Assembly: GCF_901764975.1 (NCBI RefSeq)
Contig: NZ_CABFKH010000003.1
Span: 1 to 64,000, forward strand
Reading direction: 5' to 3'
Length of the DNA stretch: 64,000 nt
Source of the DNA: Actinobacillus indolicus
GTDB taxonomy: Bacteria > Pseudomonadota > Gammaproteobacteria > Enterobacterales > Pasteurellaceae
Shown in pieces: positions 15,395 to 23,284 of this stretch. The notes under the pieces were generated by a model. That model saw only the letters and a program-made list of their open reading frames with translations, was not told the DNA's origin and did no database searches. Every line of letters starts with the position of its first letter. The stretch's first letter is position 1. A program made the position numbers and the translations under genes.

Positions 15395-17461
15395 TTATTG
15401 TAACAACGAAATATCCGCCACTTGTAAGAATAAGTTTTGTAGCGTATTTAAAATCGCTAAGCGGTTTTGACGCAGTTTTTGATCTTCCGCATTCACCATT
15501 ACGTTGTCGAAGAAGCTATCGACAGGCTGGCGTAAATTTGCCAATTTGTCGAGAACTGCCGTGTAGTCGCCTTGAGCGATCAACGGTTGCACTTCTTTTT
15601 CGAGTGCAATTACCGCTTCCGCCAACGCTTTTTCCGCAGGTTCAACACAAGCACTAAGATCGATTGCACCAATTGCCACATCGGCTTTAGCAAGAATGTT
15701 GCTCACACGCTTATTCGCTGCCGCCAATGCTTCTGCACTATCTAAGGTGCGGAAATGCGACACCGCACGCACACGAGCATCAAAATCCGCCGGGCGAGTT
15801 GGACGGCGAGCGAGAACCGCTTGGATAACGTCCACCGCAATGCCTTCATCTTGATACCACGCACGGAAACGACCGAGCATAAAGTCCACTACTTCTTCCA
15901 CAACATTCGTGTTGGTGAGCTTGTCGCCAAACAATTTCGCTGAAGTCGCCACTAAATCGCTCAGATCAAGCGGTAAGTTTTTCTCTACAATAATGCGTAA
16001 CGCACCAAGTGCCGCACGGCGTAAAGCGAATGGGTCGGCACTGCCTTTCGGTTGCTGACCGATACCAAAAATCCCCGTGAGCGTATCGAATTTATCCGCT
16101 AACGCAACAGAACTTGCCACAAGTGATTTCGGCAATTCATCGCCTGCAAAGCGTGGCATATATTGCTCGTTCAACGCCACCGCCACTTCTTCATCTTCGC
16201 CGTCGTGACGAGCATAGTGCATACCCATTACGCCTTGCGTATCGGTAAATTCAAACACCATGTTTGTCATTAAATCACATTTCGACAACAAGCCGGCACG
16301 TTTCGCCTTGGTTTCATCTGCACCAATTTGTTTTGCAATTTCGCCTGCCAGTTGTTCGATGCGAGCAGTCTTGTCACGTAACGTACCGAGTTGTTGTTGG
16401 AACAACACCGTTTCTAAACGTGGTAACTGATCTTCCAAACGCTGTTTTAAGTCGGTTTTGAAGAAGAATTCCGCATCGGTCAAACGTGGACGAACCACTT
16501 TTTCGTTCCCTTCGATAATTTTGCTTGGATCTTCAGGGTTGATGTTCGACACAAAGATAAAGTGCGGTAGCAATTTGCCGTCTTTATCATAAATCGGGAA
16601 GTATTTTTGGTCGCCTTTCATTGTGTAAACTAAGGCTTCCGCAGGTACAGCAAGGAAACGCTCTTCAAACTTCGCCGCCAACACGTTCGGATATTCCACC
16701 AAAGACGTTACTTCATCTAACAAGTCTTCTTCAATATCCGCCACGCCACCTAAAGCGGTCGCTTTTTCTTGTGCTTTTGTAAGAATTAACGCTTTACGCT
16801 CGTTGAAATCCGCAACCACTGAGCCTTTTTCTTTCAACAATGCAGGGTATTGATCCGCGTGGCTGATTTGGAACTCACGTTCGCCTAAGAAACGGTGACC
16901 ACGAACCGTTGTACCGCTTGCTACGCCTAAAATTTCGCCTTCGATTAGCTCATCGCCCAACAATAAGGTTACAGTGTGAACAGGACGCACGAACTGCTCG
17001 GTTTTATCGCCCCAACGCATTGTTTTTGGAATAGGCAATTTTGCCAACGCTTGGCTAATAATGCCCACTAACAAGTTTTTGGTCGGCTGACCTTCGATCA
17101 CCGCACGGTGAACCAGCCATTCGCCTTTATCGGTAGCAATACGCTCCGCCTGCTCAACGGTAATACCACAGCCTTTCGCCCAGCCTTCCGCCGCTTTGGT
17201 CGGCTTACCTTCCGCATCAAACGCTGCCGACACTGCCGGACCACGTTTTTCCACTTCTTTGCTTGGCTGTGCTGTCGCAAGCCCCAATACTTTCACCGCT
17301 AAACGGCGTGGCGCTGCAAACCATTCCACTTTGTCAAAGCTCAAACCAGCTTGGTTTAATTCCGCTTCAACATTCTCCGCAAATGCGGTCGCTAATTTTT
17401 TGAGTGCCTTCGGTGGCAGCTCTTCTGTGCCGATCTCGGCAAGGAAGTTTTGTGTTGTCAT
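15395..17461 (-). CDS. glyS: Glycine--tRNA ligase beta subunit
   Basis: The beta subunit of the heterotetrameric bacterial glycyl-tRNA synthetase; it binds tRNA-Gly and works with GlyQ. Its 688 aa is standard. It begins [19 protein letters not shown], the invariant N-terminal signature. An HD-like domain lies in the middle ([29 protein letters not shown]) and a C-terminal anticodon-binding domain (DALR-like) covers about 580-688. It is usually cotranscribed with glyQ, but here they are separated by about 4.5 kb. An inverted-USS terminator follows. Confidence 0.97.
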
Positions 17462-17525
17462 TTTTCTTTTCTCTTGTAGGGTGCGTTTTAACGCACCGTT
17501 TGGATTTTTAATTTTAAATATAAAC

Positions 17526-17987
17526 TTATAAGATTAAAGTATCTTGCCCTTTAAGAATATATTTTTGTAACTCAGGTAAAATTTCTTTAGGTGCTTTTGA
17601 TGAGTTATATATTCCATCTTTAATCCAACTTTTTGTATTTAACCAATCTAATTTATTAGCTATTAATTCCATCAAAATATCGTGTTTTATTAAACACCAG
17701 TCAGAATTTACATCTGTATCATCTAAAGGGAAAAGCATATATAGGTCTTTCGCAATATATTTTTTAGCAATTGCAGTTCTTGATTTCAACTGTACTTTTA
17801 AAGTAATTTCATTGCAGTGTGCTAAAAAATCTGCACCTTCCCAATCATCACTTAACTTAATACAATTAAATCCATAATCAGCTAAAACCGCAGCCTGTTT
17901 ATGAAAATTATAGTTTTCTTTCTGTTTAGAAGATAAATTTTTAGGTTCTATACGTCTGATTATATTTAATGATGTGCTTAAGAGCAT
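17526..17987 (-). CDS. Unknown protein with a PD-(D/E)XK-like motif
   Basis: A 153-aa AT-rich gene not assigned to a named family. The N-terminal part has the layout of a restriction-like nuclease core: a predicted helix ([14 protein letters not shown]), then WEGADFLA with a candidate catalytic Asp, then a strand ending in LKVQLKSR, i.e. Q-x-K in place of E-x-K. This D...QxK layout occurs in PD-(D/E)XK nucleases but is a short motif and could be chance. Start 17987 has AAGGA 9 bp upstream. It is last in a three-gene leftward operon, with 46 bp before it, next to glyS. Confidence 0.65.
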
Positions 17988-18033
17988 TTATGTTATTCCT
18001 TATCTAAGATATTTCACAAAATGAAAAAGAAAC

Positions 18034-18522
18034 TTACATATATTTTTTTAACCTTCTTAGAAAGTAAGAGAAACTCTTTCTAGTTCTCTTAATCTTTTTT
18101 AAAACTCCTTTTTCAAAAAATAAATAATCAGGTTTTTCTTTCCTATATGGTGGTTCAAAATGAGAAGAAAAATCTCCTGCTTCTAGTATTCCTGTAAACT
18201 CTAGTTTAAGATTTAAATTAAAATACCCAAAGGGTTGCTCATAAATAAAACAACCAGAACCACAATATTTGTATGTTGGATCTGCTGGTTGAGCCTTAAC
18301 ATTATTTAAAATCGGATAATTTTCCGAAAGGATAATTAAATGTCTAAGATAAAGTTGTTTATTTAATACTTCATAAAAACAAATAAACCCTTTCCAACAA
18401 TGTGAACCAAATTGCTTAGGACTTAAACCATAATCTTTAGGATTAAAAGCATCACCTATTATTTCATATTTATAGAATTCATCTTTTCTAAAAGTCAGTT
18501 TATCGAATACTGGCGTTGTCAT
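18034..18522 (-). CDS. Unknown protein, middle gene of accessory operon
   Basis: A 162-aa protein not recognised. No signal peptide or membrane helix. It is rich in aromatic residues (many Phe and Tyr), has Cys-containing segments (SHCWKGFICFYE and YCGSGCFIYEQ) and a very basic C-terminus (LKKIKRTRKSFSYFLRRLKKYM region), which might bind nucleic acid or membrane lipid. AT content is high compared with the neighbouring glyS. It lies 24 bp after the 18547 gene and 46 bp before the 17526 gene. No good Shine-Dalgarno is seen before the ATG, so translational coupling is possible. Function unknown. Confidence 0.6.
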   Translation of the reverse strand: MTTPVFDKLTFRKDEFYKYEIIGDAFNPKDYGLSPKQFGSHCWKGFICFYEVLNKQLYLRHLIILSENYPILNNVKAQPADPTYKYCGSGCFIYEQPFGYFNLNLKLEFTGILEAGDFSSHFEPPYRKEKPDYLFFEKGVLKKIKRTRKSFSYFLRRLKKYM

Positions 18523-18546
18523 TTTTGGAGTTCTCTTATCTAAACA

Positions 18547-18951
18547 CTAGTTTACAATATAAGCTTTTTCAGAACCTTGACCAAATTTCAAATCGTAAAT
18601 CTTTTTATGATAAATATTTAATTCTTTTAAGAGAGCCTCGCTATTAGAAGTAGAATGGAAACGGTATCTCCATCTACCATTCTTTGTCTGAAACCTTTCA
18701 TAGTGGGTAACTTTGTAGGCGGACACAACCAAATTCTCTCCACCTGTATTTACGCCTATAATATATTGAATTTTATCTGCCTTATCTTTCGCTAAGATCC
18801 AGTTACCTAATGTTCTAGATTTTAAGTTAGTATCATCAAAATTCTGCAATGTAAAATTAAGGCTATCATTTTTGGATAATTCTAAAGCATTTTTAATTTT
18901 AACGACTAAAATTAAACCTGTTGCATTAATCTTATTTTTAGAAATTTGCAT
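18547..18951 (-). CDS. Unknown protein, first gene of accessory operon
   Basis: A 134-aa protein from the ATG at 18951, preceded by GGAG at 8-bp spacing. A longer in-frame reading to 19044 would pass through a hairpin-rich leader and is rejected. No signal peptide. The centre looks like a small beta domain (WILAKDKADKIQYIIGVN, LVVSAYKVTHYERF, NGRWRYRF), followed by a lysine-rich helix and a GQGSEKAYIVN tail. No family recognised. It heads the 18951-17526 operon and has a structured element immediately upstream. Confidence 0.6.
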   Translation of the reverse strand: MQISKNKINATGLILVVKIKNALELSKNDSLNFTLQNFDDTNLKSRTLGNWILAKDKADKIQYIIGVNTGGENLVVSAYKVTHYERFQTKNGRWRYRFHSTSNSEALLKELNIYHKKIYDLKFGQGSEKAYIVN

Positions 18952-18970
18952 TTTATTTTCTCCACTATTT

Positions 18971-19053
18971 CCCCATACTTCGTATGGGGTTACGCATAGT
19001 GCGGTTGCTCCGCAACCTATTAGCTTGTCGCAGAGCGACAACACTAGCTTAAC
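18971..19053 (-). ncRNA. Candidate structured RNA / palindromic element (three hairpins, three-way junction)
   Basis: Three perfect hairpins with 3-nt loops lie in tandem: CCCCATAC/GTATGGGG (18971-18989), GGTTGC/GCAACC (19003-19017) and TTGTCGC/GCGACAA (19025-19041). The second and third are enclosed by outer pairing GTTA...TAAC (18989-18992 with 19050-19053) and TAGTG...CACTA (18997-19001 with 19042-19046), giving a three-way junction. There is no T-run, so it is not an ordinary terminator. It lies between the glutaredoxin-like stop (19054) and the unknown operon start (18951). It could be a dispersed REP/MITE-like repeat, a processing site or a leader. Confidence 0.55.
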
Positions 19054-19320
19054 CTAGTACGTCAGTGCTTGGGCTAACCCAGCTAAATCCAACACCACTC
19101 TCTCATCTTCCAACACCAACGCAGGAATGCCGATATAGCCATTGGCTTTGGCGTTATCAAATGCAGGGTGGTTATCGCGAAGTTTTAAAAAAGCTTTTAA
19201 ATTTGCACCGCCTGTTGTCATTTCACGTTCTTCGTAGTCAATACCAAGACGTTGTAATTCAGCGACAAATGGGGCGGTATCAGGACACCAGTGGGCGAAA
19301 TATAAAACTGGTTTTGTCAT
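19054..19320 (-). CDS. Glutaredoxin-like protein with monothiol CPDT motif
   Basis: An 88-aa thioredoxin-fold protein. The N-terminus MTKPVLYFAHWCPDT gives a beta strand followed by the active-site position, with only the first Cys (CPDT). GYIGIPALVLEDERVVLD holds the cis-Pro loop and last strands. Start 19320 is chosen because GGAG lies 7 bp upstream; an in-frame ATG at 19332 overlaps the acid-phosphatase stop. One other family feature, a Gly-rich glutathione-binding turn, is not evident. It follows the phosphatase gene closely and is probably in one transcript with GST and nitrobindin genes. Role in thiol redox chemistry is inferred. Confidence 0.75.
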   Translation of the reverse strand: MTKPVLYFAHWCPDTAPFVAELQRLGIDYEEREMTTGGANLKAFLKLRDNHPAFDNAKANGYIGIPALVLEDERVVLDLAGLAQALTY

Positions 19321-19331
19321 ATTGAACTCCA

Positions 19332-20612
19332 TTATCTTTCTGATTTAACCTTTAAACTGTTCTGTAAAATTTGTTGGAAGCGGTCGTATTCACACAGACC
19401 TTTACTATCCAATGAACAATCCGCTAATTCTAATCTTGCTCTATAAGGTTGTGTAGATAAATTTAACGGAGTAAGGTTTATTAGCTGTTCTGTTGTTTGA
19501 TAAACGTACTCTAAGCGAAATTGTCTCTGTCCACTATTCTTATGTTTCCAAACTTCAAAGAACAATTTTCCTCCGATTGGAATATTTTCTAACGAGTTTT
19601 CTAATTCATAGGGTTTTACATTTAGCGCTGCGAGCAAAGCCACTATATTAGAGTCATGTCCCACCAGTAAAATAATTTTATTCTCGCTGTTTAATTGTTG
19701 CTGAATAAGTTGTAAAAGTGGCTGAGAAACATTTTGTGCTAGAGCCTGATTTCCTTTAAATAAAGTTCGATAATAAGCATTTTTGATTTCGTTAATTGCT
19801 TGCCATTTCTCTTGAGTATCGATCTTTCCATGGGCAATATCAGAGCTAGGTTTACCAACATAATGAGCAAGAAGCAATGCACTCACAATTTTCTTTGCGG
19901 TACTAATTGCCCCTGTAATTTTTACTGATTTATTATCTTGAATCCTATATTCACCAAGTTTTTCGCCTAAATCACACTGATTTTTTTGGAGACAATTAGT
20001 TGAATGACGATAATCAATCAGTTCACTTAATAAAGCATAATGTGGTTTAAGTTGCTGTTGTAATGTAATTAAATCAATATTACGCTTAGCTTGTTCAATA
20101 AGTATTTCATCTGGTTGATGAGCCACTGCATCAAAAATGGGATCTTTTTCTGTCCCAACTTCGCCTTGATGTTGTAAATTAACAGAACAACCAGAAAATG
20201 CTCCACTAATAATAGCTTGCCCGGTCGCAACAGTACGTTGTACGCTATTAGCATAAGCCCAAATGCCTTTACCCGTTGCACAACGTTCTGTTGTCAGTAA
20301 TCCTTTTTGAGCTAGCCATTGTCCAATATATTGTCCAAAGTAAGTTTCTAAAATGGTTCCTTTAGCCGTTAAATAGCCCGAAGGTACATCCCATTTAGCC
20401 CAGGGATAAGGAGAATACTTCTCCATTTCTTTAGGATCTTTTTCTACTGGGGAACGCAATCCGTGTCGGCTAAAAATCAACACTTTATCCAGCTCATATT
20501 CATCTAATGATAAATCATTTAGCTGTTCGGCTACGACACTATTTGCTAACACAGATGTGCAGAAAAGAGCGGTCAAATATGGAAATACTTTTGCAAGATA
20601 ATGCTTCATCAC
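19332..20612 (-). CDS. Periplasmic histidine acid phosphatase (AppA/Agp family)
   Basis: A 426-aa branch-2 histidine phosphatase that hydrolyses phosphomonoesters in the periplasm. A signal peptide is clear (residues 1-28, hydrophobic PYLTALFCTSVLANS, cleavage near VVA-EQ). The catalytic motif RHGLRSP is at 49-55, with H50 the phosphohistidine. The proton donor HD is in LLVGHDSNIVALLAAL. Cys residues likely form disulfides, consistent with periplasmic location. The family covers glucose-1-phosphatase and phytase/pH 2.5 acid phosphatase; the sequence alone does not settle the substrate. The glutaredoxin-like gene begins 12 bp before its stop is passed. Confidence 0.88.
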   Translation of the reverse strand: MMKHYLAKVFPYLTALFCTSVLANSVVAEQLNDLSLDEYELDKVLIFSRHGLRSPVEKDPKEMEKYSPYPWAKWDVPSGYLTAKGTILETYFGQYIGQWLAQKGLLTTERCATGKGIWAYANSVQRTVATGQAIISGAFSGCSVNLQHQGEVGTEKDPIFDAVAHQPDEILIEQAKRNIDLITLQQQLKPHYALLSELIDYRHSTNCLQKNQCDLGEKLGEYRIQDNKSVKITGAISTAKKIVSALLLAHYVGKPSSDIAHGKIDTQEKWQAINEIKNAYYRTLFKGNQALAQNVSQPLLQLIQQQLNSENKIILLVGHDSNIVALLAALNVKPYELENSLENIPIGGKLFFEVWKHKNSGQRQFRLEYVYQTTEQLINLTPLNLSTQPYRARLELADCSLDSKGLCEYDRFQQILQNSLKVKSER

Positions 20613-20632: not shown

Positions 20633-21280
20633 CTATTCAGATTTCGCCGCCAATGCTGTTGGGTTTGGCGTAGGTTCTGCAATTTTAGTCAAACGGTTAC
20701 GATCTGTATGATGGAACGGTTCAGGATAATTAGGAATAATCATTACTGTATCTTGTTCATAAGACCAAGTACCATCATCATTGATTTTTACCTTAATGGT
20801 ATAGCTTTCAGTCGTAAAGTTCTGTTCAATAAATGGGTTTGAAATAATGCCATTTGTCAGCGAGCCACGTACGGCTTTCACGGTAAATTCTTTCGCATCC
20901 GCTGGCGCATTACCTGTTGCCATGAGCGTTTGTCCACGAGGAATACTGAGCGTGAAAAGAATATTGCCTGTTGCAGGCTCCCATAACCAATAGCCAACTT
21001 GATCGTGGAATGTTTCCACCTCATTTGGCTGCACAATACGAGTATGATAGCGTAAGCCATAAAACAGTTGAGGGCCGTTTGTTTGAGCATCAATAGGCTG
21101 TAATTCAACATGCTCAATATAAGGATCTTTTTCTGGTCCCTCGGCTTTTGGATTAACATCTAGCCCACGCTTACCTTCCCACACGCCAGCCATTGCCGTT
21201 AAAGGTCCTAAATTGGCTAAGGTGTTTACATCCGGCTCCGCTTCTGTGTAAATGTCTTTTGGGTATTGATAGTCTGCCAT
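20633..21280 (-). CDS. Nitrobindin / heme-binding beta-barrel (THAP4-like) protein
   Basis: A 215-aa protein without a signal peptide. The core from about residue 25 fits the FABP-like ten-stranded barrel of nitrobindins (THAP4 C-terminal type): MAGVWEGKRGLD at the first strand, GLRYHTRI, FHDQVGYWLWEP, LFTLSIPRGQTLMATG and, near the end, PFHHTDRNRLTKI, where the family's His ligand would lie. The expected heme Fe(III) ligand is among the HH pair, inferred. It lies between the GST and acid-phosphatase genes with 30-bp or shorter gaps. Function in other bacteria is not well defined. Confidence 0.8.
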   Translation of the reverse strand: MADYQYPKDIYTEAEPDVNTLANLGPLTAMAGVWEGKRGLDVNPKAEGPEKDPYIEHVELQPIDAQTNGPQLFYGLRYHTRIVQPNEVETFHDQVGYWLWEPATGNILFTLSIPRGQTLMATGNAPADAKEFTVKAVRGSLTNGIISNPFIEQNFTTESYTIKVKINDDGTWSYEQDTVMIIPNYPEPFHHTDRNRLTKIAEPTPNPTALAAKSE

Positions 21281-21310: not shown

Positions 21311-21928
21311 TTATAAAGTTGGTTGAGTTGCTTGCAATGCAGGATATTTCTCATTCATCATTGCCGCCCAAGCGGTCAGATTTGGGAAATCTTTTGCTAA
21401 ATCATAACCTGTATTATCAGGGCGGAACTGCCACCAATCAATTAAGCAAACGGTGGTTAATGTGCCGATATTTAACTCATCGCCAAATTCTGCCAGCTTC
21501 TCTTCAAGCTGTTTAAAGCTACGAATATTGCGATCCATCAACTGTTGATGGCGAGCTTTCCACCACTCATTTTCAGGGCGAAAACGGCGTTCGGTAACAA
21601 TGGTTGGGGTGGTATTTTCCAAAATGCCTTCAACCAATGCGTGTAAACTTAAGACACGCCAACGCTTTTCATCTTTTGGAAATAATGTCGGTTGCGATCC
21701 CATTTCATCTAAATACTGGCTGATCAGAAAACTGCCAAACAGCCATTCGCCGTTTTCCATTTGTAACGCAGGAATACGCCCTAGCGGATTATCTTTATTA
21801 TGTGGCGAATCGGGGTCAAATGAATTGGTAATACGCAACAGCTCCACTTGATTTTCCAGTTGATGATATTTCAATGTCGCCACCGCTTTGCGTGCGAACG
21901 AGCTCGTTGTTGAGTACCAAAGTTTCAT
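21311..21928 (-). CDS. Glutathione S-transferase family protein (YibF-like)
   Basis: A 205-aa cytosolic GST. The N-terminal thioredoxin-fold domain (1-80) begins MKLWYSTTSSFARKAVATL and carries NPLGRIPALQMENGEWLFGS, with the Ser/cis-Pro glutathione-binding loop (RIPAL) and GS of the G-site. An all-helical C-terminal domain follows. The lack of a recognisable substrate pocket leaves its target open. It lies between glyQ and the nitrobindin gene, 15 bp from the glyQ stop, so the GST, nitrobindin, phosphatase and glutaredoxin genes may be read through from glyQ. Confidence 0.88.
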   Translation of the reverse strand: MKLWYSTTSSFARKAVATLKYHQLENQVELLRITNSFDPDSPHNKDNPLGRIPALQMENGEWLFGSFLISQYLDEMGSQPTLFPKDEKRWRVLSLHALVEGILENTTPTIVTERRFRPENEWWKARHQQLMDRNIRSFKQLEEKLAEFGDELNIGTLTTVCLIDWWQFRPDNTGYDLAKDFPNLTAWAAMMNEKYPALQATQPTL

Positions 21929-21943: not shown

Positions 21944-22852
21944 TTATTTTTTACAACCCGGGAACCCTAAGGCTTCACGGCTTGCGTAGTATGCTTCTGC
22001 CACGCCTTTGGTTAAGGTGCGAATACGTAAAATATAGCGTTGGCGTTCGGTTACAGAGATCGCTTTGCGAGCATCAAGTAAGTTAAAGCTGTGTGCCGCT
22101 TTTAAGATACGCTCGTAAGCTGGCAATGGTAACGGTTTTTCTAATGACAATAACTCTTGGGCTTCTTTTTCGTATTGATCGAAACAGTAGAATAAGAAAT
22201 CCGTATTGGCATATTCAAAGTTGTAAGTAGATTGCTCCACTTCGTTTTGATGGAACACATCGCCGTAAGTGGTTTTACCAAGCGGACCGTCCGACCAAAC
22301 CAGATCGTACACGCTGTCCACGCCTTGAATGTACATCGCTAAACGCTCTAAGCCGTAAGTGATTTCGCCGGTTACCGGTTTACATTCTAAACCGCCCACT
22401 TGTTGGAAGTAGGTAAATTGGGTCACTTCCATACCGTTTAGCCACACTTCCCAACCTAAGCCCCACGCCCCTAGTGTTGGGTTTTCCCAGTTGTCTTCCA
22501 CAAAGCGAATGTCGTTTTGCGTTGGGTCGAAACCTAACATTTTCAAGCTGTCGAGATAGAGTTCTTGAATGTTATCCGGTGATGGTTTGATCACCACTTG
22601 GAATTGATAGTAGTGTTGTAAACGGTTTGGGTTTTCGCCATAGCGACCGTCAGTCGGACGGCGTGAAGGCTGAACGTAAGCAAACGCCATTGGCTCAGGG
22701 CCAAGCGCACGCAAACAGGTCATCGGGTGAGAGGTACCTGCCCCCACTTCCATATCAAACGGCTGAACCACGGTGCAACCTTGGTTTGCCCAGTAATCTT
22801 GCAGGGCTAAAATCATACCTTGGAAAGTTTTAACGTTAAATTTTGCTGTCAT
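21944..22852 (-). CDS. glyQ: Glycine--tRNA ligase alpha subunit
   Basis: The alpha subunit of the bacterial alpha2beta2 glycyl-tRNA synthetase; it holds the class II catalytic core that makes glycyl-adenylate. It has 302 aa. Recognisable blocks: [18 protein letters not shown] at the start, [19 protein letters not shown] (ATP and glycine site), [19 protein letters not shown] and [18 protein letters not shown] (motif 3). The glyS gene lies 4.5 kb downstream, after an insertion of unrelated genes. No T-box or other riboswitch is apparent in the upstream region. Confidence 0.98.
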
Positions 22853-23020: not shown

Positions 23021-23110
23021 TGGCGGAGGAAGTGAGATTCGAACTCACGGAGGGCGTTAACCCTCGCCGGTTTTCAAGACCGGTGCATTCAACCGCTCTG
23101 CCATTCCTCC
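23021..23110 (-). tRNA. tRNA-Ser (anticodon TGA), second copy
   Basis: A 90-nt class II tRNA read on the minus strand: GGAGGAATGGCAGAGCGG at the 5' end, anticodon TGA in GGTCTTGAAAACC, long variable arm CGAGGGTTAACGCCCTC, and CCA encoded. The sequence is identical to the copy at 23195-23284. Confidence 0.97.
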
Positions 23111-23194: not shown

Positions 23195-23284
23195 TGGCGG
23201 AGGAAGTGAGATTCGAACTCACGGAGGGCGTTAACCCTCGCCGGTTTTCAAGACCGGTGCATTCAACCGCTCTGCCATTCCTCC
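23195..23284 (-). tRNA. tRNA-Ser (anticodon TGA), first copy
   Basis: Identical to the 23021-23110 gene over all 90 nt: same class II cloverleaf, TGA anticodon and encoded CCA. The 84-bp spacer has no terminator, so the two are probably one leftward transcript that ends at 22983. Confidence 0.97.

Follow-up and report, generated by a model that had tools for sequence, protein, structure and literature searches.

Genes at the locus

The window considered here is the whole 64,000-nucleotide stretch of Actinobacillus indolicus DNA that was analysed. Between glyS and glyQ, it holds three small genes, called A, B and C here and read leftward in that order. The original prediction, made from the letters alone, had described three consecutive leftward AT-rich genes encoding 134, 162 and 153 amino acids (aa), with gaps of 24 bp (A to B) and 46 bp (B to C), that belong to no recognisable family. 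The listing of open reading frames (ORFs) and the base composition confirm this description; G+C is 27-31% over 17500-18999, against 44-52% across most of glyS. The prediction had given the interval as 17526-19053; its upper part, 18952-19053, is a non-coding spacer.

15395..17461, minus strand: glyS, conserved flank of a variable site
17526..17987, minus strand: gene C, 153 aa, ATG start; predicted single-domain PD-(D/E)XK-fold protein, candidate nuclease
Gene C residues: E24, D53 and Q66-x-K68, with K76, Y77 and H102 also invariant (from alignments, an AlphaFold2 model and structure matches)
18034..18522, minus strand: gene B, 162 aa, ATG start; divergent partner downstream of A, basic at its C-terminus
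18547..18951, minus strand: gene A, 134 aa; by sequence, homologous to the C-terminal domain with which CMoRE/PD-T4-3 senses modified bases, but encoded alone and with no GIY-YIG nuclease domain
21944..22852, minus strand: glyQ, conserved flank of the variable site

The reading frame of A extends over 18547-19044; the ATG at 18951 is the start common to the relatives of A. All three are real genes, because relatives exist in other genomes and because the ratio of nonsynonymous to synonymous divergence (dN/dS) is at most 0.41 in all 15 sequence pairs computed.

No convincing match to any of the three was found in Pfam, NCBIfam, PADLOC or PHROGs. The best Pfam E-values, 0.15 for B and 0.2 for A, fall far short of the cut-offs, and C has no Pfam match. 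In NCBIfam, the best value is 0.0089 for C (TrmBL2, at 15.6 bits against a cut-off of 530), followed by 0.17 for A. PADLOC gives no match to A, B or C at E 1, and the single PHROGs match is to A, at 0.25. Sequence searches of the PDB returned nothing useful for A, B or C; two matches of C to designed TIM barrels (E 1.9e-4 and 3.9e-4) were discarded, as just short repeats were aligned. Viral contigs contain no relative of A or B, and phage records contain none of A or C, B not having been searched there.

The interval between glyQ and glyS

Both glyQ and glyS were found in all 140 Pasteurellaceae genomes of the family census, which takes one genome per species and includes that of the window; the glyQ of one (G016) is a fragment of 20 residues. 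The two genes are co-linear in 129 of the 140. The other 11 were excluded, having glyQ and glyS on different contigs or strands, or a fragmentary glyQ. Between the co-linear pairs, the spacing ranges from 42 to 23585 bp with a median of 2427 bp, and one is shorter than 100 bp. In five of five other families of the order examined, the genes lie less than 30 bp apart. Because of this, the open interval in Pasteurellaceae looks derived.

The contents of 122 of the 129 intervals were read, leaving aside G026, G094 and G134 (<300 bp), G157, G160, G161 and G163. Here, ORFs of at least 60 aa were chosen mechanically, as the longest from an ATG, GTG or TTG start. This gave 482 ORFs in 110 families, with 74 singletons. 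In 86 of the 122 intervals, one or more ORFs of at least 100 aa belong to none of the eight commonest families. Thus, different whole-gene cassettes stand between two conserved genes, and the variable occupancy that had been named as support for the original prediction is real, here between species. Of the ORFs of at least 100 aa, 349 of 352 are co-directional with glyQ and glyS and three are opposed. Those of rare families (at most three genomes, at least 80 aa) lie closer to glyS, with a median relative position of 0.66 against 0.36 (Mann-Whitney p 1.2e-8, uncorrected for relatedness); a rare gene adjoins glyS in 42, and glyQ in 14, of the 108 intervals that have at least two ORFs of at least 80 aa.

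Many known phage-defence genes are among the cargo, as counted within the site itself. The PADLOC and Pfam scans behind this statement cover 91 of the 110 families by one representative each (94 representatives of at least 80 aa were picked, and three, one of L225 and two of L227, left out). The defence content so described is a minimum, taken from the first 25 of 493 (PADLOC) and the first 25 of 93 (Pfam) matched families. Of the scanned representatives, 19 were looked at singly; of ten mapped with Pfam, two have no match. The largest interval, the 23585 bp of G024 (L158, L159), holds a type III-A CRISPR-Cas system with Cas10, Csm4, Cas6, a CARF protein and Cas1. That of G140 (L239, 13069 bp) holds a DrmD-like helicase and an LmuB-like gene adjoining a type III restriction-modification (R-M) pair. 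In G130 (L230), an EcoRV-type endonuclease and a D12 methylase stand between glyQ and glyS, and in G138 (L237), an HpaII endonuclease and a C5 methylase share one ORF of 654 aa there. The YhcG family is present in 34, and the DUF559 family in 42, of the 122 intervals, and AAA_15, FRG and Fic proteins are also found.

No integrase is among the 25 of 93 Pfam families considered, mobility genes not having been searched systematically; the interval of G025 holds one gene pair that reads as insertion sequence-like. Targeted literature searches found no report of glyQ-glyS as an exchange site or hotspot.

In the single contig of G021, glyQ and glyS lie apart on opposite strands (C1:74395-76458 and 2289274-2290176). 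In G024, the opening ~36 codons of glyS are duplicated (L072, 5547-5651), ~2.5 kb ahead of the real glyS; this might be a trace of imprecise exchange.

Gene A and its partner B

At E 0.001, A has matches in nine of the 140 genomes. Six of these are stand-alone genes, two (G033, G131) lie within larger proteins, and one (G067) is weak and has an internal stop. The larger proteins indicate what A is related to. Relatives of A make up the C-terminal half of LEM-3-like GIY-YIG proteins in Neisseria gonorrhoeae and G131, as scanned with Pfam, and in G033 by our own reading. The N. gonorrhoeae fusion (295 aa; L083, 5581-6468) is co-directional between genes reading as hisG and hisD. It matches the PADLOC model PD-T4-3 at 2.8e-10, and it matches CMoRE in the PDB (9u75) at 3.4e-4 over the GIY-YIG part only; a second alignment, which covers the motif of A, is collinear yet sub-threshold. 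The insertion in N. gonorrhoeae, incidentally, is into another housekeeping operon; both records that show it (2.17 Mb) carry a plasmid label but look like chromosomes.

CMoRE (PD-T4-3) of E. coli, with structures 9U75 and 9U7U, is a type IV restriction enzyme of the GIY-YIG kind, whose C-terminal domain senses 5-hydroxymethylcytosine (5hmC) and its glucosylated form (5ghmC) (PMC12923530). In that 2026 paper, the domain binds 5hm-dCTP, the 5-hydroxyl group contacting a main-chain oxygen, and its authors report that neither sequence nor structure searches yielded a homologue of it. Relatives of PD-T4-3 were found in 11 of 369 genomes (14 matches), and an E. coli copy matches 9u75 at 1.3e-171. 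An alignment of the sensor domain was built from five of the 14 matches, chosen for an open frame over the domain, and one E. coli copy.

Compared by hhalign, whose E-values here refer to one comparison, the alignments of A and of this domain match with a probability of 90.8% (E 1.2e-6, 88 columns). Trimmed alignments give 94.7% (E 6.2e-8, score 48.8), and the six stand-alone rows of A by themselves give 88.1% (E 3.1e-6). None of 200 column shuffles reaches the score of 48.8, their maximum being 22.3; the reversed alignment scores 10.0, and unrelated alignments give 0.3% and 0.1%. On profile evidence, then, A is a stand-alone homologue of the CMoRE/PD-T4-3 sensor domain. The architecture of GIY-YIG plus sensor recurs in its relatives in Neisseria, G131 and G033. 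The window gene differs in being separate, with no nuclease domain, and in that an unrelated gene, B, comes next in five of the six genomes. It starts with the sensor domain, and neither Pfam nor PADLOC finds a GIY-YIG domain in it; it is therefore not filed as CMoRE. By its homology, A most likely reads modified bases in invading DNA.

A sensor that has no nuclease might, of course, do something else. It might be a regulatory protein or an anti-restriction decoy, which competes with, or tunes, the full GIY-YIG enzymes. In favour of this, A lacks a nuclease domain and is nevertheless under strong purifying selection, with dN/dS of 0.04-0.09 in six pairs; this marks A as a gene that is being maintained, as opposed to a fragment in decay. 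Against the decoy, each genome has one A-type match, no second, fused copy appears at E 0.001 in the six genomes with a stand-alone A, and no stand-alone A is present in the fusion carriers G033 and G131. The decoy is thus doubtful, and a sensor of invading DNA is the preferred role for A.

An open frame of 116 codons in G221 (L273, 867-1178) covers the CMoRE-type sensor domain alone, and could be either a further stand-alone gene of this kind or a remnant.

Gene B directly follows A in five of the six genomes with a stand-alone A, and always stands after A where it is found (five of five). It is divergent, at 41-48% to the window copy. As the original prediction had noted, its C-terminus is basic. 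Weak relatives of B lie on four cyanobacterial plasmid records, where the three neighbourhoods read were uninformative.

Gene C

The prediction had seen in C a motif, WEGADFLA...LKVQLKSR, that resembles the core of a PD-(D/E)XK nuclease. This motif is real. Relatives of C occupy 56 loci of the genome collection, in proteobacteria, Verrucomicrobia, Dehalococcoidia, Patescibacteria, Bacteroidia, others and one archaeon, and 14 loci on viral contigs; among the latter, L143 duplicates L118 of the genome collection. In an alignment of the window copy with 54 of the 70 fetched loci, G51, D53, Q66, K68, K76, Y77 and H102 are invariant across all 55 sequences, D53, Q66 and K68 falling within the motif, and at least 90% of them retain E24. 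An acidic residue and the catalytic pattern D...(D/E/Q)xK are thus both present.

The predicted fold agrees. The AlphaFold2 model of C has a mean predicted local distance difference score (pLDDT) of 91 and a predicted template modelling score (pTM) of 0.82. In Foldseek searches of the PDB, Hjc and I-Ssp6803I, which we take to belong to the PD-(D/E)XK superfamily, fill the top 25 rows, with E-values from 1.6e-3 upwards. VIA-align gives Z of 9.0 over 103 residues for Hjc, 8.8 over 111 for I-Ssp6803I and 8.3 over 107 for the N-domain of Eco15I; other structure matches are the NhoI N-domain, SPARDA, DpnI and PvuII. The fold is accepted because the top rows share one superfamily and because the motif falls in place, so that the model of C has the common PD-(D/E)XK core, which for the product at 17526 had been named as support for the original prediction. 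The likeness to Hjc, I-Ssp6803I, the Eco15I and NhoI N-domains and the SPARDA nuclease lies in this predicted fold and in the positions of the motif. In the rows shown, however, identity is ~7-20%, and C is a separate family. On the strength of the model, C is most likely a metal-dependent DNA nuclease. Pfam scans of the 55 relatives give scattered weak matches, including DUF4365 in three and PDDEXK_5 in one.

Elsewhere, relatives of C belong to an operon that resembles an R-M system. Of 77 loci examined, three have no usable C frame, and 18 (17 of them distinct) share the order of a methyltransferase of ~915 aa, C, a DEAD/ResIII helicase of ~690 aa, and a gene of ~400 aa, several of the 18 receiving an extra mechanically called ORF before C. 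These operons are mostly alphaproteobacterial (for example, L078 2257-8642 and L081 2255-8618). In the Paracoccus copy that was scanned, the methyltransferase is MmeI-type, with Pfam MmeI domains and a PADLOC match to REase_MTase_IIG at 8.7e-275, and the ~400-aa gene is GIY-YIG.

MmeI carries its own nuclease motif, D-x9-ExK. The first 200 residues of 18 aligned methyltransferases from these operons contain no conserved acidic-x-lysine motif (one of 19 long upstream genes, that of L101, is not a methyltransferase). This suggests that C may supply the nuclease in the MmeI-type operon. The likeness to type IIG R-M lies in the neighbours of the C relatives at these 18 loci: an MmeI-type methyltransferase on one side, and a helicase and then a GIY-YIG gene on the other. 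The difference is that no methyltransferase or helicase adjoins C in the window.

One operon or separate modules

Universal conservation in the family, which would have spoken for core genes and against the original prediction, is not what is seen. At E 0.001, four of the 140 genomes have C, five have B and six have a stand-alone A. Where they occur, it is mostly at one place, the glyQ-glyS interval, which holds all six stand-alone A, all five B and three of the four C. The remaining C, that of G035, comes after a YhcG-like gene (by our own reading) and a DUF1304 gene, in a locus that runs in one direction throughout and is bounded by genes reading as 6-phosphogluconolactonase and 6-phosphogluconate dehydrogenase. 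The neighbours differ among the genomes, as follows.

Window: A, B, C
G001: PIN-like gene, GNAT, C, A, B
G091: two YhcG-type genes, A, B; no C
G093: PIN-like gene, YhcG type, A, B; no C
G111: phosphatase, A, B; no C
G061: DUF559 type, 74-aa ORF, A; no B or C
G092: two YhcG-type genes, GNAT, C, 191-aa gene; no A

The original prediction had treated the three genes as one operon. The corresponding functional proposal would be a three-component defence operon, with A as the sensor of modified phage DNA, C as the enzyme that cuts it, and B as the link between them. The three are consecutive and co-directional in the window, with the short gaps given above; the one terminator-like site on their strand lies inside B and is at chance level; and A and C also occur together in G001. 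Against this stand the genomes that have A and B without C (G091, G093, G111), A alone (G061), or C without A (G092, G035), as well as the different order in G001. Relatives of C, moreover, keep company with the MmeI-type methyltransferase and helicase instead in 18 of the 77 loci. A single unit is therefore unlikely. Because order and partners differ among genomes, the variable site holds two distinct modules here, A-B and C, and no conserved three-gene operon.

It might also be proposed that C, alone or with the GNAT gene of G001 and G092, is a toxin-antitoxin or abortive-infection unit, and not a restriction-type nuclease. The GNAT gene ends 12 bp before C in both of these genomes, and solitary small cargo is common at the site. 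However, no GNAT gene directly adjoins C in the window or in G035, neither toxin nor antitoxin families match in Pfam, NCBIfam, PADLOC or PHROGs, and relatives of C lie within the restriction-like operon. A toxin-antitoxin pair was also considered for B, whose Pfam value of 0.15 is to VAPB_antitox, and was rejected, that match being far below the cut-off. C has no constant partner. We hold a toxin unit to be improbable, and prefer to read C as a candidate nuclease of the restriction type. Of the "defence or toxin-type cassette" in the original prediction, then, defence stands as the best reading of these sequences, and the toxin does not.

That A, B and C serve glycyl-tRNA synthetase or other core physiology, as their co-directional location between glyQ and glyS might suggest, is most improbable, and a housekeeping role is rejected by their patchy distribution: at E 0.001, 131 of the 140 genomes lack A, 135 lack B and 136 lack C, and relatives of C occur in varied contexts across phyla.

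Divergence of cargo and flanks

Two comparisons speak for transfer. In the same-genus pair of the window genome and G001, B is 47% identical and GlyS 98%. For C, synonymous divergence (dS) is lower than that of both glyS and glyQ in all three pairs. Between the window genome (G000) and G001, it is 0.181 for C, 0.223 for glyS and 0.430 for glyQ; between G000 and G092, 0.272, 0.358 and 0.602; and between G001 and G092, which belong to two genera, 0.098, 0.300 and 0.557. For A and B, the results are mixed. G091 and G093 differ by 0.066 in A and 0.038 in B, against 0.177 in glyS and 0.289 in glyQ. The values for G001 and G091 are 0.309 (A), 0.223 (B), 0.325 (glyS) and 0.356 (glyQ), and those for G001 and G093 are 0.254, 0.216, 0.252 and 0.308. 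The dN/dS of B is 0.08-0.41 (six pairs), and that of C is 0.17-0.34 (three pairs).

A proposed gene-exchange site and its cargo

We propose, with a probability of roughly 0.7, that the glyQ-glyS junction is a gene-exchange site of Pasteurellaceae, and that A-B and C are two anti-phage-type modules that have come to rest there. Cassettes, apparently without integrases, would be swapped at the junction. The most likely route would be uptake of DNA, with homologous recombination in the conserved genes on either side, glyQ and glyS. The cargo, which is co-directional with both flanks, would be co-transcribed. Within the C module, a stand-alone PD-(D/E)XK protein would cut DNA. Within the A-B module, A would bind modified bases, and B, its usual partner, would have some role beside it. 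An anti-phage function of the window copy is likely on these comparisons.

The closest precedent is the minimal mobile elements of Neisseria, which were reportedly described by Saunders and Snyder in 2002. In a later account, these are whole-gene cassettes between conserved genes that are incorporated solely by homologous recombination and often carry R-M systems (PMC3898611). The likeness is in the different cassettes between two conserved genes and in the R-M cargo. The differences are that the Pasteurellaceae site splits the glyQ-glyS pair and is open in nearly the whole family, that its cargo is mostly co-directional, reaches 23.6 kb and includes CRISPR-Cas, and that it is known here between species.

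Several results weigh against this proposal. Some concern exchange itself. The dS of A is below that of both flanks in just two of six pairs. In the three pairs that include the window, A (0.48-0.53) and B (1.0-1.1) are more diverged than both flanks, and it follows that the A-B of the window is an allele older than its split from G001, and not a recent gain from the genomes compared. This is also visible in the proteins: between the window and G001, which are of the same genus, amino-acid identity is 98% for GlyS, 91% for A and 47% for B. The uptake sequence ACAAGCGGT, presumably of the Actinobacillus type, occurs 28 times in the window and not once in the 4.5-kb glyQ-glyS interval, where ~2 would be expected at even density; its absence lends no support to uptake of this piece.

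Others concern the cargo and the three genes. The commonest cargo (glutaredoxin-like, phosphatase, glutathione-S-transferase-like) is not known as defence. A is rare, a profile search of 398 genomes of the phylum matching two, one of them that of the window itself. Its ligand is not readable from the sequence, because the contact with 5hmC in CMoRE is made by a main-chain oxygen, and a single-sequence model of A (pLDDT 43) was discarded. B, for which the PDB offered no useful sequence match, is left unexplained. For C, no Foldseek match reaches E 0.001, and the best Z of 9.0 is little above the 7-8 stated as typical of models with no clear match.

The proposal of a gene-exchange site with two modules could be carried a step further. 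A and B might form a split, modification-dependent defence module, in which a nuclease-free CMoRE-type sensor acts through B or through whichever PD-(D/E)XK nuclease (C, YhcG or DUF559) has arrived beside it. This extension is tentative, and we do not favour it. Were it true, the site would assemble combinations of sensor and cutter by exchange of cassettes.

Even without this step, the locus would have uses. With A, the phage-DNA sensor domain that its paper described as lacking homologues gains a stand-alone relative, so that the spread of the domain and its range of ligands become testable. C represents a small PD-(D/E)XK family; its window copy matches nothing in Pfam, and in other bacteria members of the family stand in an MmeI-type restriction-like operon. 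The glyQ-glyS junction would be a fixed address within an essential enzyme pair, where a few kb of each genome would suffice to survey the accessory and defence genes of the whole family.

Neighbouring features

The remainder of the interval in the window, and the short sequences that border A and C, are as follows.

17480..17497, no strand assigned: perfect palindrome GGTGCGTTTTAACGCACC, between C and glyS, found once in the window
18952..19053, minus strand: non-coding spacer with short palindromes, from the glutaredoxin-like gene to A
19054..19332, minus strand: glutaredoxin-like gene (weak Pfam/NCBIfam matches only); its family, present in 98 of 122 intervals, is the commonest cargo
19332..20612, minus strand: glucose-1-phosphatase/phytase-like gene (Pfam/NCBIfam); family in 33 of 122 intervals
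20633..21280, minus strand: gene of 215 aa with no function assigned (ORF listing); family in 39 of 122 intervals
21311..21928, minus strand: glutathione-S-transferase-like gene, named by reading its sequence; family in 23 of 122 intervals

The spacer upstream of A was considered as a dispersed repeat, and this was rejected, as the whole spacer is found once in its genome. The glutaredoxin-like gene may be a long-standing resident of the site. Just upstream of glyQ stand two tandem tRNA-Ser (TGA) genes, at 23021-23110 and 23195-23284 of the window; an Rfam scan of the window finds two tRNAs and nothing else.

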